Shown here: piece after piece, positions 8,496 through 53,826 of the stretch
Layout of the letters: every line of letters begins with the position of its first letter
Numbering within the stretch: position 1 is the first letter of the stretch
NCBI GenBank assembly: GCA_905182715.1
Contig: CAJJCP010000013.1
Span: 1 to 64,000, forward strand
Source of the DNA: an uncultured Candidatus Poseidoniales archaeon
Lineage (GTDB): Archaea; Thermoplasmatota; Poseidoniia; Poseidoniales; Poseidoniaceae
Length of the DNA stretch: 64,000 nt
Reading direction: 5' to 3'
The notes under the pieces: generated by a model
What the model saw: only the letters and a program-made list of their open reading frames with translations
The model's database searches: none
What the model was told of the DNA's origin: nothing
Program-made: the position numbers and the translations under genes

Positions 8496-8618
8496 GCCAC
8501 CTCCAAATCAAAGCAGTTGTTGAATACATCGCTTCTTAGAAAAGGGACTCCCACCATTATTATGATAAGTCAACTCTCATAGCGCAACGCATTCGGTTCT
8601 GCCGATAGGGTGTTTATT

Positions 8619-11506
8619 ATGAGTTCATGGCATGATTTAAATTCAGAAGAAACATTCCACACACTCGACACTGAATTGGATGGTTTAACGGAGCAAGAAG
8701 TACAAAAACGTCGTTCACGTTATGGAATGAACAAGTTGAAAGAACCAGAAAAGACATCTTCCATTCTTCGTTTCCTCTCTCAATACCATGACCCTTTGAA
8801 TTATTTATTGATTACAGCGGCCATTGTTGCCCTCCTGATTCATCCCGAACAACCAGGAGATGCAATCTTCATTTTTATCGTACTTACTGCAAATGCAACC
8901 TTTGGATTTTGGCAAGAAGGTCAGGCAGAGCAAGCCATGGATGCACTTAAACAGATGTCGGTGTCAACTTGTGTCGTTATACGTGAAGGCATCGAATGGT
9001 CGATTCCAACACCTGATTTAGTACCTGGAGACGTTGTAAAACTCGATGAAGGACTCAATGTTCCTGCAGATATTCGAGTTGTTGAATCGTATCAATGTAA
9101 AGTTGATGAATCTTCGTTAACCGGAGAATCCAACAGTATACTCAAATCTACAGATGCCCTTCCGTCTTCCACCCTTCTTGCCGACCGCAATAACATGGCG
9201 TACATGGGTACCTGTGTTTCGACTGGTCGTGCAATTGGAATTGTAGTTGAAACTGGGATGTCGACTGAACTGGGTCGTATTGCAAGTAATATCGTTGGTT
9301 CTGAATCACCCAAGACTCCGCTTGAATTAAAATTAGAATCTCTCGGTCGTTTCTTAGGGTTTATCGCTTTAATTGTGGCTACGCTTTTGGTTTCTATTAA
9401 GGTCCTCATCGCGTATGGAGATCCAGAAATTGATACAATTGGTCTTCGTGATGTGGCAGTCGAGCAATTTATTGTCGCCATAGCCATTTTCGTGGCAATT
9501 GTTCCAGAAGGGCTACCCATCATCCTCGTGATTACCCTCGCCTTGGGAATGCGCAACATGGCGCGTCACAAAGCGATCATCCGCAGAATGAAAGCCGTTG
9601 AAACATTAGGTTCAACTACAGTTATTTGTTCTGACAAAACTGGTACACTTACCAAGAATCAGATGACAGTTCGACAATTTACGACCACAGATGGGACATT
9701 TACTGTATCGGGTGAAGGATTCAAACCAAAAGGAAAACTTTCGTATGAAGGCGTCGAAGTATCCGATTCAAAATGGAAGAACTTCAGAGTGACCTCGCAT
9801 TTCGACTGTCAGCAGCTTGTTTGAGCCTATGCCACAATTCACAGATTTCGAAAGTTGAATCTCAATGGCAAGCCATTGGCAATCCCACAGATTCAGCCTG
9901 CGCTGTATTGGGATGGAAAATAAACGGTGATGTACGTAAATTTGCGCAACGCCATTCACGTATTCATGAGTTCTTTTTTGACACAACTCGAAAACGTATG
10001 TCTGTCATTCATGAATACGAAGGTGAACGTTGGGTCTTTTCGAAAGGTGGAGCAGGTGGCTATGTTTCACTTGCTGAATGGAAAATAAAAGATGGTGAAA
10101 TCGTCCCTATCGAACGAGATGATATCGAAGCCGCTTCACAGGTCAACAAAGATATGGCGAGTCAAGCAATGCGTGTTCTCGCCCTTTGTGCTCGTAAATT
10201 AGATGATGATGAGGATATTCATGATGTGAAAGTCGTTGAATCAGGTTTCATTTTCCTTGGCCTCGTTGGAATTATGGACCCACCTCGTGCCGAAGTGAAA
10301 GATGCAATAGCCATTTGTCAACAGGCAGGAATTCGAGTTAAAATGATTACAGGTGACCAGCAATATACTGCCGAGGCAATTGGTCGTGAATTGAACATCA
10401 CCGAAGGAGGAATCGCTCCAATCAATGGTAGCGTCCTTGCGACACTCGATGACGATGCCATCAGTGAGGCTGCTTCTCAAGCTAGTATCTTTTCGAGAGT
10501 CACTCCAGAACAAAAAATGCGTATTGTATCAGGACTTCAAGCACGTGGTGAAATTGTCGCAATGACGGGTGATGGTGTGAACGATGCACCTGCCCTTTCT
10601 CGCGCGAACATTGGTATTGCAATGGGGATCGCTGGAACAGATGTAGCGAAAGACGCCTCTGACATGGTCTTACAAGACGATAATTTTGCGAATATCGTTC
10701 ACGCAATTGAAGAGGGTCGTAAAATTTATCAGAATATTCGTAATTTCGTACGCTATCAAGTTTCGACAAACGTAGCTGCGGTCGCCTTAATCATCATCTC
10801 CACATTTATTTTCGGCTGGAACTTACCGCTCACCGCGACACAAATTCTTGTGATTAACATCTTGATGGACGGCCCACCAGCCGTTGCTCTCGGCGTTGAA
10901 AAGAAGCATGGCAATGTGATGTCACGCCCGCCGCGTCCTGTGAACGAAGGTCTTCCTAATTTCAGCGATATTGTTCTTATCTTTTGGTTAGGAGCAGTCA
11001 TGGTCACAGGGACGCTCTTGGTCTTCTTCCTTGCTGGAGGAGGCATAAACGGGGAACTCTGTGAAACAGCACCTCTTACCGACCTCGATACCTTTACTGG
11101 CTATGATATGGATGCGTGCATCGCAGGTGATACCGCTGCGTCAGAGGAATATGCAAACGCTAAATTTGCTTATGCTCAAACCATGACGTTCTCGGTCTTC
11201 ATCCTGTATCAACTGTTCAATGTCATCAATTGTCGTTCAAGCGATGAGAGTATTTTCAAACTTGGAGTTTTTTCCAATAAAGCGATTAATTATGCCCTCA
11301 TCATTTCTTTGAGCCTGCTTCTTTTCTTTGTTCAACTTTCAAATTATACCATTCCGGTTCTTGATGTTCAAATTGGCAACCTACTTTCGACTATGAGTTT
11401 GAAAGCAAGTGACTGGTTTGTGATCACTTTGGTTGCATCCGGCGTATTCATTGTTGATGAGTTCAGAAAATTCATTGTCAATTCTCGTTATTTTGCAGTT
11501 CAATGA
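8619..11506 (+). CDS. P2A-type cation-transporting (likely Ca2+) P-type ATPase, one frameshift
   Basis: CSDKTGTLTKNQM, DESSLTGES, VPEGLP, MTGDGVNDAPAL; two ORFs (8610-9824, 9773-11506) join near 9767-9775. Confidence 0.9.
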
Positions 11507-35532: not shown

Positions 35533-37076
35533 CACTCATTTCACTTGATGGAAACACACTCACTGCAGCAGAAGTAATGCGAGTTGCTACAGGTAACGCT
35601 CAAGTTTCACTTTCCTCTGACGCAATCCCTCGTATCGAAGCAGCACGCGCAGTTGTAGAGCGAATATTATCAAACAATGAAACGGTCTATGGAATCAATA
35701 CTGGATTTGGTGCACTTGTCCACCAACGGATATCTTCCGAAGACTTGGCTCAATTGCAAACGAACTTGGTCCGTTCACATGCGACTGCAATTGGCGAATT
35801 AATGTCAAAAGAATCTGTCCGCGCCATGATGACAGTACGTATCAACTCTCTTTCGAAGGGCAATTCAGGCGTGCACCCCGAGGTATTGCAACAGTTAGTT
35901 CATTTCTTGAATTATGATATCACGCCTGCAATTCCCCGTATAGGTAGTCTTGGAGCAAGTGGTGATTTAGCACCTCTCTCTCACATGGCTTTGAGTCTGA
36001 TCGGCGAAGGAGAAGTTTTGTCCGGCAATGGTGAGACCGAGCCAACTCTGAATCAAATGAAAAAGCATGGTTTAATTCCGCTTGAATTACGGGCAAAGGA
36101 CGGTTTGTCACTGATCAATGGTACAAGCCAAATGTGTAGTTTTTTAGTTTTAGCCGAGCAACGTATCGCTGACCTGCTGGTGTATGCCGACCTCGCACTT
36201 TGTACATCAATTGAAGCGCGTAAAGCAAGTGTCAAGCCATCGGATGTACGAGTTCATGATGCAAGACCGCACCCAGGGCAAGTACTGGTATCTCGACGTA
36301 TTCGAGCAATTCTCAAGGACTCCCCTATCATGGAATCGCACTCGAATTGTGAGCAAGTGCAGGATGCTTATTCATTCCGTTGTGCGCCACAAGTTCACGG
36401 TGCAATTTACGAACGATTATTGTCTTTGCAGAATACTTTGGATATTGAATTGAACAGCGCCACTGACAATCCACTCATATTCCCTGACCTTTCCAATCCA
36501 GGCTCGCATGAAGTTATTTCACAGGGCAACTTCCACGGCGAAGTCTTGGCATTGACTGCAGATGCGATGACAGCCGCGATGTTTGAACTCGGTTCTATTT
36601 CCGAACGTAGAATCGACCAGATGCTCGACCCTGCTCGAAGTGGTTTGCCGGCTTTTTTGGCCAAAGATTCAGGTCTTGAGTCTGGATTGATGATTGTACA
36701 ATATGTCGCTGGCGCCTCACTTGGTGAGCTCCATGGGCATGCAGCACCCCGCTCAATATTTTCGACTTCGACATCAGCTGGCCAAGAAGACCATGTGAGC
36801 ATGGGTGCGACAGCATGTTGGAACTTACTTCAAGCCACCAATCGTCTTTCCGAGGTATTGGCTTGTGAGTTCATAGTTGCATGTCAAGCATTAGAATTTA
36901 ATGACGTTCAACCTTCGAATGTGATTGTGGCTATGAAACAGCGAATTCGTTCAATCGTCGAGCCGTTAGAAGGAGATCGAAGTACAAGCGCAGATATTAT
37001 TTCTGTTGCGAACGAACTTCTCGATGGGGCATGGTTAGCAAGAGTTGAGGCCGAAGTAGGCCGCCTACCTCGTTAA
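35529..37076 (+). CDS. hutH: Histidine ammonia-lyase
   Basis: VYGINTGFGALVHQRIS, GSLGASGDLAPLSHMAL (MIO motif ASG), DNPLIF. Confidence 0.95.
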   Translation: MTLISLDGNTLTAAEVMRVATGNAQVSLSSDAIPRIEAARAVVERILSNNETVYGINTGFGALVHQRISSEDLAQLQTNLVRSHATAIGELMSKESVRAMMTVRINSLSKGNSGVHPEVLQQLVHFLNYDITPAIPRIGSLGASGDLAPLSHMALSLIGEGEVLSGNGETEPTLNQMKKHGLIPLELRAKDGLSLINGTSQMCSFLVLAEQRIADLLVYADLALCTSIEARKASVKPSDVRVHDARPHPGQVLVSRRIRAILKDSPIMESHSNCEQVQDAYSFRCAPQVHGAIYERLLSLQNTLDIELNSATDNPLIFPDLSNPGSHEVISQGNFHGEVLALTADAMTAAMFELGSISERRIDQMLDPARSGLPAFLAKDSGLESGLMIVQYVAGASLGELHGHAAPRSIFSTSTSAGQEDHVSMGATACWNLLQATNRLSEVLACEFIVACQALEFNDVQPSNVIVAMKQRIRSIVEPLEGDRSTSADIISVANELLDGAWLARVEAEVGRLPR

Positions 37077-37959
37077 TCTTCAAAAAATTGATTTTCGAGT
37101 TCATCAAGACCAGTGAGTTGACGGATTCTGAATCGAGCAGTTGCATCATTGGATGCAGAGAGTGAAGTCGTGTTGAGGTTGAGATATTGTTCCAGTTCGA
37201 CTGCTCTTCGCACCTTCTCCTCAACCGCCGCGTACAATGCATATGCTTCATCAGGTTTGAAACTTAATGCCGCCTCAGCTTCAGAAACATCGAGACCCAT
37301 TCTCCTCCATTGGAGGATACGTTTACGAAGAAGTGACAGAGTAAAACCAGTTGAGGGTAGTCTCGACAGCATTACCAGTCGTGGTGTCCCATCCTCCATA
37401 ATTTCCAGCCCCTTCATTTCGATTTCTGAATCAAATTCTTCAATCGATTCGACCTCAGCGTGATTCACATTCTCTTGAGCAGCCTTTGGTAAAGTGAGGT
37501 CAATCGCAGGTGCTTCACGTCTTAGTCGAGCTAACCAGAGAGATTCGAATGCTAACGAACGTATCGGCATGATAATTGTCCACTGTGTCCGATGTACGGA
37601 TTCACGTAACTCACGTACGAAAGAAAGTACTGCATCCTCTCCGTTGATGGTCATGAGCCATTCAAGACCCTCAAGCACAACAATTCCTCCGTGGTTGGAA
37701 AGGTGCCTCAATATATGGTCGCGGATTTCACCAATGTCGGGACGTACTGCACCTTCGGTTGCTCTTTCTGTAAGCCAATAAGCTTCGACAGCATTGATGT
37801 CGAGGTGCTCAAGTAAACGTCGATGTGGTAATCTCGAAAAGAGGAGTATATGTTCCTCGGATGACTGACTTTCTCGATCAACCCAGCCGAGTGTTTCGTC
37901 ATCACTGATGAATTCGGTAGTAAATATTCGGCCTTTTTCGATGATCTCACCCCGCGCAT
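37073..37959 (-). CDS. DUF835-like protein, one frameshift near the N-terminus
   Basis: 37073-37711 reading frame stays open upstream (ARGEIIEKGRIFTTEFISDDETLGWVDRESQSSEEHILLFSRLPHRRLLEHLDINAVEAYWLTERATEGAVRPDIGEIRDHIL); frame lacks a start unless one base is added to the G4 run after ATG 37959. Confidence 0.65.
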
Positions 37960-38042
37960 ACGACTGCTCGTATTACGGGTTCAGCGTTCAAAGTCTATGA
38001 ATCATTATATCCGAAGATGCGATGGGAGGAACAGGTGTGGTA

Positions 38043-39666
38043 ATGGCTGACGAAACCAAAGAAGAAATTGCAATGGCCGAATGTGGGGCTTGTAGAGCCA
38101 TCGTCCCGCTCAATTCCGATAACTGCCCCGAATGTGATATTTCCTTTTCGGGTGTATCTGACGAATCACTCGGCGAATGTGGAGCATGCCAAGGACTCGT
38201 GCCTTTAGATTCTACCAAATGCACCCATTGCGGTACAATATTCGTCGCTGATGATGTTGTTGATGTCTTGAGGAAATGGCTTGCTGAGACCGGTATTACA
38301 ATCCCGATTCTCTTCAAGAAATTCGATAAAGATGGAGACGGGCAAATTGATTCTGCTGAACTTAAAGCTGGACTTCTTAGCCTTAAGTTGGCAGACTTGC
38401 CACCTTCACAAGTTGAGCGCTTAATCGACACCATCGATGAAGACGGCGATGGTCAAATCGATCTTGCTGAATTACACGAAACAATTACTGGCGTGTCATA
38501 TTCTAAAGTTGCCAAAGAAGAAGACACCAACATCTGATGCCGCTGGCGAAGAAGAAGATGAAGAGAGAAGATGAAGAAGAAGAAGGAGAAGAAGAGAGTC
38601 TTCTGAGGCCGACATGGAAACCGATGAAGAAGAAATTTCGGAAACCGAGACTGAAGATGTTGATGAGGACGATGATGAGTCTGAATTCGAAGATGAAGAA
38701 ATAGAAAACACTGTTGAATCTGAAGATGAAGAAACAGAAGACACTGATGAATCCGAAGACTCTGATCTTGATGACATGGATGATGTCCTCGATGATATCG
38801 AAGATGAAATGGATGAAGATGATGAGATGGAGGCAATTGATGTACCTAAACCACTTTCAATCTTGCACCTTATATCCGATGCAATGGATGATTCTGGTGA
38901 TTCACCAAACAAATTCTTTAATTCACTTGACAAAGATGGTGATGGAAATGTTTCTGTGGAGGAATTCACTGAGGCTATCGAAGGGCTCATTGATGAAGAA
39001 GTCACTTCCAAAGATATTGAATCCTTCCTTGTGAATGCAGATGACGATGGTGATGGTGCCATCGATATTATCGAATTCGTCACTGCTCTCGAATCATTAG
39101 AGGATGCTGACGAAGCCGTCGATGATGATTCAAGACTTTCGAAAAAGGTGGAGAAACCTTTCCCTACCGAAATGCAGCGAAAAATGATGGGCAAACAATG
39201 GAATGATATCGTTTGGCCACTGATTCATTTGGCTTTTGGCCTCTTCATTGCCGTATGGCTCATCAATGGACTTGGTGGTATTGGACCACTTGGAGTTGAC
39301 GGCTCAGGTGGAAACATAGCTCTCGAAACTGCTTATGAAATAGGGTTTGAAGATTGGAATGAAGGAGACATTTATCCTTGCGATGCTTCAGTTCAAGTCG
39401 GAGAATGTAAAAACTCACTCACACCATTCTCTGGATCTGCATCATCGATGCCTGCTGGATTCTATTGGGATGGGATTTTCTTGATGGCTCTTGGAGCCAT
39501 CGGACTCATTGCTTCACTCGGCATCCATCTTGCTATTGTCCCTGGATGGCGAGCACGTGCTAAAGCAATGAAAGAAGTCGAAGATGATACTGATGAAGCG
39601 CGCTCAGAAGATTCGAATGAAGAGGACGAAGACGGAATCGATGAAGATGATTCCGAGGACGAATGA
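38043..39666 (+). CDS. Zinc-ribbon / four-EF-hand / transmembrane protein, broken by frameshifts in a GAA-rich tract
   Basis: CGAC..CPEC and CGAC..CTHC zinc ribbons; loops DKDGDGQIDSAE, DEDGDGQIDLAE, DKDGDGNVSVEE, DDDGDGAIDIIE; two TM segments; ORFs 38022-38537 and 38614-39666. Confidence 0.75.
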
Positions 39667-39890
39667 ATTTACTTGAAGGATTAGAAGATGAAGGCGATGA
39701 TGAAGATGAAGATGGAGAGGGATCTGATGATGAAATTGATATCGGATCTCATGTAGGAATCTCACTCGAAGATGAAGAAGTGTTTGGAGTTATCATCGAA
39801 TTTGACGATGATGAAGAGACCGTTACTATCAAAGAAGATGGTACTGGAGACCTGGTCACCGGATATCAAGAAGACATGTTTGTGGAGTGA
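39663..39890 (+). CDS. Small highly acidic protein
   Basis: 75 aa ORF overlapping upstream gene by ATGA. Confidence 0.55.
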   Translation: MNLLEGLEDEGDDEDEDGEGSDDEIDIGSHVGISLEDEEVFGVIIEFDDDEETVTIKEDGTGDLVTGYQEDMFVE

Positions 39891-39894
39891 AAGG

Positions 39895-40215
39895 ATGACC
39901 TCTCACGACACACTTGAGTCATTGAAAGGTAAATCGTCTTGTCCTGTTTGCGGTTGTATCGAGCAGGTAGGCAGCATCCGATGTTCTGAATGTGGAACTT
40001 TCCATTCGGGAATCCATCTCGAGGAACGTGAAGCACCAGCACCTAATTCAACACCTGAACGTGAAGTCATCGACCCTTCACTCTACTCTCTTTCCAATCA
40101 ACACGCCATACCTGAGGAAGATTTCGAAGAAAGTGAAAAAATATCATCATGGTCTGGCGGCTCCACTGACTTCACTATGACTGATGAGGAAGAGAAAGCC
40201 ATTGTCAAAAATTGA
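39895..40215 (+). CDS. Zinc-ribbon protein
   Basis: CPVCGCIEQVGSIRCSECGTFHSG. Confidence 0.6.
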   Translation: MTSHDTLESLKGKSSCPVCGCIEQVGSIRCSECGTFHSGIHLEEREAPAPNSTPEREVIDPSLYSLSNQHAIPEEDFEESEKISSWSGGSTDFTMTDEEEKAIVKN

Positions 40216-41306: not shown

Positions 41307-42582
41307 TCAATGATGGATAAGTTTTCCATTCAAGCAGGTTGAAACGAATGGAGTATCAGATGGTTGCATACACCATGCCTCCCAATAAGGGGCGTTCAGT
41401 ATATTGAAATTCGCAACAGCGCCTTCTTCAATACGTCCATGTATTTTTCCAGTTGGATGCGGAGAGGTTTCGGAAGGGTTGCGCGTAGCAGCAACGAGAG
41501 CTGCAAGAGGATGTACCGAACAACGCTGGGCGAGAAGTGAGCCTACAAATGGTAAGCTGATTGTTTTACAATTCGGATTGAAATCAGTTGCGATACTCCA
41601 AGTGAAGTTATTATCAATCGCATCGTTAAAGTCAGGCCATTGAGCACCCATTGCATATGGAGTGCCGGGTAAGAAACCCGTATTGACGCCTGCCGCCTCC
41701 ATCTTCATTCTTGTATCATGGCCCGTATAGTGCGCATGATCGGCAGTTATCACTTTGAGTTCTGAAGCCAATCCTCCCCCTCCACCATCTGCAAACTCAT
41801 CAATATGCATTCGCAGGTCAAGCCCTCCTGCACGTGATGCTTTGAGGATATCTTCAGATTGTTCTAACGAGAACCAGCCGGGTTCACAAAACACATCAGC
41901 TGAACGAGCAATTCCTTGTTCCAACACTCTTGGCAATTGTTCGGATAATATTTGTTCGACATATGCATCGGCAGTCATTCCAGTTGGCGATATCGTGTGC
42001 ACCGAGCCATGTTAAATCCAGTGAAGGGAGGTGATTCATAGACTGCAGTTGTGATGCAATGCGTAACAATCTCAATTCCGATTCAGTTGAAAGCCCGTAT
42101 CCGCTCTTTGCCTCGAGATGAGTCGTACCGGAACGAAGAGCTGAACGCATCCGCTCATAACCCAGTTGCAAAAGGCGTTCGTCTGACACTTGAGATGTCG
42201 AACGGACAGTATCTTGAATCCCACCACCCAATTCCGAAATGTCCTTGTAAGATTTTCCTTCATGCCTCCATGAAAGTTCACGTGAACGGTCGCCTGCCCA
42301 CAATAAATGCGTATGACCGTCGACCAAGCCTGGGATAACTGCGTTACCATGTAATGAAAGAACAGTAACTTCTGATGTACTGTCCGGTTTGTCACTTGCG
42401 GCACCATATTCATCTTGGAGTTCTGCGGAAGATGCAATTTTCTCAATCGTATCACCGAGGACAACAATACCCATTCCCGGTGCATCGATTAATCCGTCAG
42501 AATCGAACAGAGAATGCCCTTGCAATGGGCCTTTTCCAGATAAATGCGCCATTGGTCCAACATCAAGGAAGACTGTGCGCAT
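41307..42582 (-). CDS. hutI: Imidazolonepropionase, one frameshift
   Basis: AVIPGLVDGHTHLLWAGDRSRELSWRHEG, LEAKSGYGLSTESELRLLR; continues HTISPTGMTADAYVEQILSEQLPRVL and ATDFNPNCKT in second ORF. Confidence 0.9.
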
Positions 42583-42640
42583 ATCTACTGCTAGAGGCTT
42601 AGGGTTGAAGAACAATGGCTCTCTGGCTTAAACGATTGAG

Positions 42641-52674: not shown

Positions 52675-53826
52675 ATGAAACGAGCAGTCATGGCACTCTC
52701 TGGTGGAATGGATTCGACCGCACTCTTGATGCGGCTTTTAGCCGATCAATACAAAGTAGATTGTATCTCGTACAATTACGGTCAAAAGCACAGTGTGGAG
52801 TTGGAACGAGCGCAATTGAACATCAAATATCTTGCATCAAAAGGATTCGAAATTGAACATAAAATAATCGACCTTTCGAGTGCAATGGGTGCGTTTGAAA
52901 GTTCACTTCTCAGAGGAGGTGAAGACATTCCTGAAGGCCATTATGAGGCTGAACAAATGAAGTCAACCGTGGTGCCGAATCGGAATGCTATATTCGCCTC
53001 AATAATGTATGGATATGCTCTCTCAGTTTCGAATCGTGAGAGTTGCAAAGTTGAAATTGCTCTCGGTGTTCATTCCGGAGACCATGAAATCTATCCGGAT
53101 TGCCGACCTGAATTTTATCAGGCAATCGAACACGCTTTTGCCATTGGAAATTGGGACAGTGAAAACATCTCATTCACCCTACCCTATCTCGACGGTGATA
53201 AGGCATCCATACTCGAAGATGCCCAAAAGGCCATTCTTCAGCTTGACCTTGAATTCAACACGGTGTTTGCGAATACAAATACCTCCTATAATCCTGATGA
53301 AGAAGGGCGAAGTTCTGGAATGAGTGGCGCCGATATTGAGCGTATTCTTGCCTTCCACAGCCTTGGACTCACCGACCCCGTCGATTACCAAACCACTTGG
53401 GAAGAAGTGCTTAGAAACGCCCTCGAGGTTGAAAAATCGCATAAGGAAGAAGATTACCGTCAACGTCTCACTGAAGAACAATACTTAGTCACACGTCAAA
53501 GTGCTACAGAACGCGCCTTTACGGGGATCTATTGGGATGAAAAAAGAGATGGCGATTACTTTTGCATCTGTTGTGGTCATCTTTTGTTTACTTCTTCTAT
53601 GAAATTCGATTCAGGTTGCGGTTGGCCATCATTCCACACGGAGCATCCCGATGCAGGAATCAAGCACATCGAGGATTACACGCATGGAATGCAAAGAGTT
53701 GAAGTTCAATGTTCAAAGTGTGACGCACATTTAGGACATATCTTCGAAGACGGGCCACGAGCATTCGGTGGGCAAAGGTATTGCATCAATTCAGCTTCAC
53801 TGGATTTTGAGGAGATGGAAGAATGA
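52675..53826 (+). CDS. queC: QueC-like 7-cyano-7-deazaguanine synthase fused to MsrB (peptide methionine-R-sulfoxide reductase)
   Basis: N-terminal MALSGGMDSTALLMRLL, SYNYGQKHSVELERA, VPNRNAIFASI; C-terminal CICCGHLLFTSSMKFDSGCGWPSFHTE ... CSKCDAHLGHIFEDGP...GQRYCINSASL. Confidence 0.93.
   Translation: MKRAVMALSGGMDSTALLMRLLADQYKVDCISYNYGQKHSVELERAQLNIKYLASKGFEIEHKIIDLSSAMGAFESSLLRGGEDIPEGHYEAEQMKSTVVPNRNAIFASIMYGYALSVSNRESCKVEIALGVHSGDHEIYPDCRPEFYQAIEHAFAIGNWDSENISFTLPYLDGDKASILEDAQKAILQLDLEFNTVFANTNTSYNPDEEGRSSGMSGADIERILAFHSLGLTDPVDYQTTWEEVLRNALEVEKSHKEEDYRQRLTEEQYLVTRQSATERAFTGIYWDEKRDGDYFCICCGHLLFTSSMKFDSGCGWPSFHTEHPDAGIKHIEDYTHGMQRVEVQCSKCDAHLGHIFEDGPRAFGGQRYCINSASLDFEEMEE

Follow-up and report, generated by a model that had tools for sequence, protein, structure and literature searches.

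The window, a stretch of 64,000 nucleotides from a Ca. Poseidoniaceae (MGIIa) MAG (1.78 Mb, 36 contigs), carries a gene that combines a double zinc ribbon, two pairs of EF-hands, two transmembrane (TM) helices and a small C-terminal domain. With modest confidence we read the predicted product as a membrane-anchored, cytosol-facing sensor or adaptor that responds to Ca2+. The gene and its parts, all on the forward strand, are the following:

38043..39890, +, whole gene: zinc ribbons, EF pair 1, acidic linker, EF pair 2, TM helix, loop, TM helix, acidic linker, C-terminal domain (31 distinct full-length relatives, nucleotide alignment)
38082..38135, +, zinc ribbon 1 (Cys 14, 17, 28, 31; all four invariant in 30 orthologs)
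38178..38231, +, zinc ribbon 2 (Cys 46, 49, 60, 63; all four invariant in 30 orthologs)
38325..38360, +, EF loop 1, DKDGDGQIDSAE (D1, I8 and E12 invariant, D or N throughout at 3 and 5; PF00036)
38436..38471, +, EF loop 2, DEDGDGQIDLAE (D1, G6, I8 and E12 invariant)
38512..38860, +, acidic linker 1, unconserved, holding frame breaks (20% mean pairwise identity, 56% D/E, modelled as disordered)
38929..38964, +, EF loop 3, DKDGDGNVSVEE (D1 and E12 invariant, 3 and 5 D/N/S)
39040..39075, +, EF loop 4, DDDGDGAIDIIE (D1, D3, D9 and E12 invariant, position 5 D/N)
39208..39270, +, TM helix 1 (model helix, hydrophobicity scan of orthologs, 70% mean identity)
39271..39471, +, loop between the helices, with an NSLTPF motif and invariant Cys at 39379-39381 and 39406-39408 (conserved columns)
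39472..39543, +, TM helix 2, followed by a conserved WRARAKAMKEV stretch (model and alignment)
39545..39725, +, acidic linker 2, holding a frame break (27% mean identity, 58% D/E)
39726..39890, +, C-terminal small beta domain, IDIGSHVG...TGYQEDMFVE (conservation, partial beta model)

Extent of the gene and its frame breaks

In the window the gene is split by indels into three frames, and an ATG upstream at 38022 is another possible start. The nucleotide alignment with the relatives places the breaks in both GAA-rich linkers, at ~38530-38620 and at ~39650. The relatives were extracted from two collections; the other loci that were fetched turned out to be duplicates, contig-end truncations or interrupted by runs of N. 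All 31 distinct full-length relatives (the 30 aligned sequences and L044) encode the protein as one ORF, none of them has a conserved stop between the fragments, and in every one the ORF extends into the counterpart of the window ORF 39663-39890. The 30 aligned proteins are 559-745 aa long. The first-pass annotation had joined two ORFs, had proposed to look for a continuous ORF in relatives, and had named separately encoded orthologs with a conserved stop, or unconserved loops, as the counter-case. The relatives bear out the join and the counter-case was not encountered, but the extent had been drawn too short, as the gene passes 39666 and the third fragment (39663-39890) had been missed.

Several other genes of the window are broken as well:

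1254-2462, ProRS, frameshift-broken
8610-11506, P2A-type ATPase, frameshift-broken
37073-37959, strand opposite to that of the EF/zinc-ribbon gene, DUF835 protein, frameshift-broken
39895..40215, +, following gene, for a small zinc-ribbon protein, whose start lies a few bases past the stop; 3' end frameshifted
41307-42615, HutI, frameshift-broken

The P2A-type ATPase is in two halves, which align to consecutive parts of TIGR01522, HutI and ProRS are likewise split or truncated, and the orthologs of HutI, of the DUF835 neighbour and of the downstream zinc-ribbon gene are unbroken elsewhere. Because nearby genes are broken in a like manner, the breaks in the EF/zinc-ribbon gene are most simply put down to indel errors of this assembly; they may also reflect a genuine frameshift of recent date in this strain alone. 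One could argue that the fragments are genuine genes and that the orthologs, too, are encoded as two or three proteins, since the frames are broken in the window and ATG codons are present at 38614 and 39663. However, every full-length relative is a single ORF and adjacent genes of the assembly carry the same type of break, so that we consider this reading highly improbable. Programmed frameshifting is ruled out by the single ORFs of the orthologs. A viral origin of the gene was also rejected, as no relatives were found among phage records or viral contigs.

The surroundings of the gene are syntenic across the family and comprise HutU, HutH, the DUF835 gene on the other strand, the EF/zinc-ribbon gene, HutI, Kae1 and others. 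The downstream zinc-ribbon protein gene (~120 aa) starts within a few bases in 14 of the 17 loci examined, and the two genes may therefore form one operon. No such link exists with the P2A-type ATPase, whose gene lies ~27 kb away in the window. Elsewhere in the window (52675-53826) a QueC domain is fused to an MsrB/SelR domain, and the zinc-binding cysteines of ordinary QueC seem to be absent from the C-terminal part of this fusion.

Domains and their conservation

The double zinc ribbon, the four EF loops and the two TM helices that had been read from the letters are all found in the sequence at the places assigned to them. Proteins of the double zinc ribbon family have two CxxC pairs per ribbon, and the product shares with the PF12773 proteins its two CxxC...CxxC ribbons, with 8 of 8 zinc cysteines invariant in the 30-sequence alignment. 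It differs from them in that it scores below the Pfam cut-off (18.6-26.3 vs 27.3) and joins the ribbons to EF-hands and TM helices. The architecture is not covered by any Pfam or NCBIfam family.

An EF-hand consists of a 12-residue loop with ligands at positions 1, 3 and 5 and a glutamate at position 12, is flanked by helices and usually occurs in pairs. The EF-hand signal is far beyond chance: Pfam EF-hand_1 matches two window fragments with E-values of 3.4e-13 and 3.9e-9 and four stretches of the intact ortholog L032 with 9.5e-19, and the profile matches calmodulins at ~1e-16. All 30 orthologs have D at position 1 and E at position 12 of each of the four loops, with only D, N or S at positions 3 and 5, so that the loops had rightly been called canonical, with ligand positions both intact and conserved. 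In the model the EF pairs form helix-loop-helix units with pLDDT >70 for the majority of their residues. The pattern of all loops, the profile matches and the model thus place the protein in the EF-hand superfamily (PF00036/PF13499). Four EF-hands, the number that had been read in the window, is the usual one, yet it is not fixed, and five to seven loops can be recognised in some orthologs. Pair 2 is less conserved and its position 6 is replaced by R/E/K/N/D in some orthologs; in these, pair 2 may therefore bind weakly.

Region identities were computed on the 16-sequence alignment A2 and invariance on the 30-sequence alignment. Mean pairwise identity amounts to 80% for the zinc ribbons, 78% for EF-hands 1-2, 54% for EF-hands 3-4, 63-70% for the TM helices and their loop, and 79% for the C-terminal domain (81% mean column identity). 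Against the closest ortholog, L032, dN/dS is 0.023, 0.055 and 0.082 for the three fragments, showing that the gene is under purifying selection.

The helices are flanked by stretches rich in K/R, QRKMMGKQW before TM1 and WRARAKAMK after TM2, which lie on the same side as the EF, zinc and C-terminal parts. On account of these flanks we assign a cytosolic position to the zinc, EF and C-terminal parts and a probably exterior one to the cysteine-containing inter-helix loop. A structure prediction had been suggested as a check on the first reading, and the model of the full protein does contain the helix-loop-helix EF pairs and the TM helices; these are its usable parts. Its mean pLDDT is low (56) because about half of the protein is disordered, including both linkers, and the linker between the EF pairs is as acidic as had been claimed. 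In the full-length relatives the protein has a conserved end (IDIGSHVG...GDLVTGYQEDMF). Modelled alone, this C-terminal domain folds into three strands with a mean pLDDT of 67. It has no Pfam match, no solved relative and no significant fold match. SH3-like, Tudor and KOW barrels have five strands, and the weak Tudor/KOW matches together with a model of three strands give only a hint of a resemblance.

Calmodulin, a soluble protein of ~150 aa with only two EF pairs and a short linker, is the best match among solved structures. Two EF pairs (PF13499) with canonical loops are common to both, and to the extent of this EF-hand homology the earlier label "calmodulin-like" is justified. It holds no further: with 559-745 aa the archaeal protein is anchored in the membrane, has ~100 disordered acidic residues between the pairs, adds zinc ribbons and a C-terminal domain, and varies in the number of its EF pairs. 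It might work like the STIM-type sensors of the ER in that both carry EF-hands on a membrane-anchored protein. STIM, however, has an exterior (lumenal) EF-SAM part, a single TM helix and a coiled coil, whereas here there are two TM helices and the EF-hands would be cytosolic, judging from charge. No SAM or coiled-coil domain was matched, PF25578 gave a weak match below the cut-off in one ortholog, and no homology to STIM was detected beyond the EF motif.

Distribution and related EF pairs

The family profile detects the gene across the Poseidoniaceae and, in the sister family f2, in a scatter of genera; weaker matches elsewhere in the phylum are taken to be short zinc-ribbon or EF matches. For EF-hands in general, EF-hand_7 at E <= 1e-5 was run against 147 genomes from the phylum, all with a completeness of 85% or more except the window's own. 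All 24 Poseidoniaceae genomes have matches (5-11 each), as do 15 of the 16 f2 genomes, and outside the order only three genomes of the set do so (two of the same class, one from elsewhere). Of 14 well-known genomes used as controls, Caulobacter alone was positive. The Poseidoniaceae lineage is thus unusually rich in EF-hand sites for its phylum, and the view that four EF-hand loops are unusual in an archaeon holds for the phylum but not for this order, which has many EF-hand proteins.

Similar EF pairs are found in or fused to other multi-pass membrane proteins, bioenergetic ones among them, which differ from our protein in lacking zinc ribbons; we call this pair the Poseidoniaceae EF module. 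In the window's own genome an EF pair is inserted in V/A-ATPase subunit I, where it separates the N-terminal part from the membrane domain (L106, EF pair L056; G000:C34:31352-33694; PF01496 3.4e-30, EF-hand_7 7.5e-8). Most genomes of genus g1, to which the window's genome belongs, have this insertion, one (G001) being without it; in the remaining Poseidoniaceae genera subunit I is shorter (mostly ~680 aa) and aligns on either side of it. G083, a genome of a sister genus, has a closely similar EF pair in a NuoL-type subunit of complex I (L136, G083:C17, ~856 aa; PF00361 3e-61, PF00662 1.8e-8), and several other genomes of that genus have similar pairs in frames of 847-872 aa. Many Poseidoniaceae genera encode an 11-TM protein with a C-terminal EF pair of the module type (L062, L138, L141, L146, L160), in which Pfam detects EF-hands and nothing else; we suspect it to be heme-copper-oxidase-like. 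With the module as phmmer query, EF pair 1 scores ~37-44 bits on average and calmodulin 16-25, and an LPP motif is common to EF pair 1 and the module. This suggests that they share descent, although the sequences are short.

Amino-acid permeases (L055, L083, L094; PF13520, tested on L055) also have a C-terminal EF pair, whose score against the module is no better than that of calmodulin. A metal-binding-lipoprotein-like protein of ~856 aa (L137, G074:C1) combines EF-like loops with very long tracts rich in His and Asp.

Modules that contain calcium-binding domains and are specific to subgroups have been described in Poseidoniales, and a signalling role was suggested (PMC9258230); a study of MGII metabolism (PMC6336850) does not mention calcium, and PMC7016017 provides background on Ca2+ components of prokaryotic origin. 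That these archaea have calcium-binding families is already on record in PMC9258230. We found no published account of the architecture or of the EF insertions in V-ATPase and complex I, in a search that was thin on subscription journals, and both are apparently unreported.

Possible function

Outside the cell sea water is rich in Ca2+, so that EF-hands in the cytosol could sense an influx. At the roughly 10 mM of sea water, EF-hands on the outer side would stay loaded all the time. Two genes for Ca2+/cation exchangers (PF01699) were found per genome in six genomes tested, and the window encodes the P2A-type ATPase; judging from these genes, the cells appear equipped to hold cytosolic Ca2+ low. 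With its N- and C-terminal parts in the cytosol, as the charge bias suggests, the protein could respond to a rise in cytosolic Ca2+ by loading of the EF pairs, which would then open up to take hold of a target. Both acidic linkers would be long, flexible spacers, and the zinc ribbons and the C-terminal domain might hold partner proteins at the membrane. We favour a sensor because 30 orthologs retain the loop ligands, in contrast to linkers whose identity is down to 20-27%. The low dN/dS, the modelled helix-loop-helix pairs and the wealth of EF pairs in this lineage speak for it too, and the Ca2+ sensing suggested in the first-pass annotation is plausible.

The linkers, 56-58% acidic, could also be viewed as part of a membrane-tethered buffer in which EF-hands and Asp/Glu tracts absorb Ca2+ and no signal is passed on. 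The number of EF pairs varies among orthologs, as expected if capacity outweighs geometry. A buffer would, however, need neither the zinc ribbons and the C-terminal domain, which are conserved at least as well as the EF-hands, nor the invariant loop cysteines, and we regard it as quite unlikely. A structural scaffold also seems unlikely to us: the EF-hands would then be constitutively filled with Ca2+ or Mg2+ and act as protein-binding modules of a membrane complex. Prokaryotic EF-hands often are structural, and the strong conservation of the whole array would suit a scaffold too, but the loops retain the full canonical ligand pattern including E12, which is typical of regulatory Ca2+ sites.

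The sensor reading can be extended to a Ca2+-control system of the Poseidoniaceae, in which the EF module would have been copied into V/A-ATPase subunit I, NuoL and other membrane proteins, and the zinc-ribbon protein would be the general sensor anchored in the membrane. We put this forward tentatively and consider it rather doubtful. If this is true, a prokaryote would possess a coordinated Ca2+ signalling network independent of that of eukaryotes. Surface oceans harbour abundant Marine Group II archaea, and the EF-hand membrane protein, together with the related pairs in V-ATPase and complex I, offers a concrete place to seek coordinated Ca2+ control in prokaryotes.
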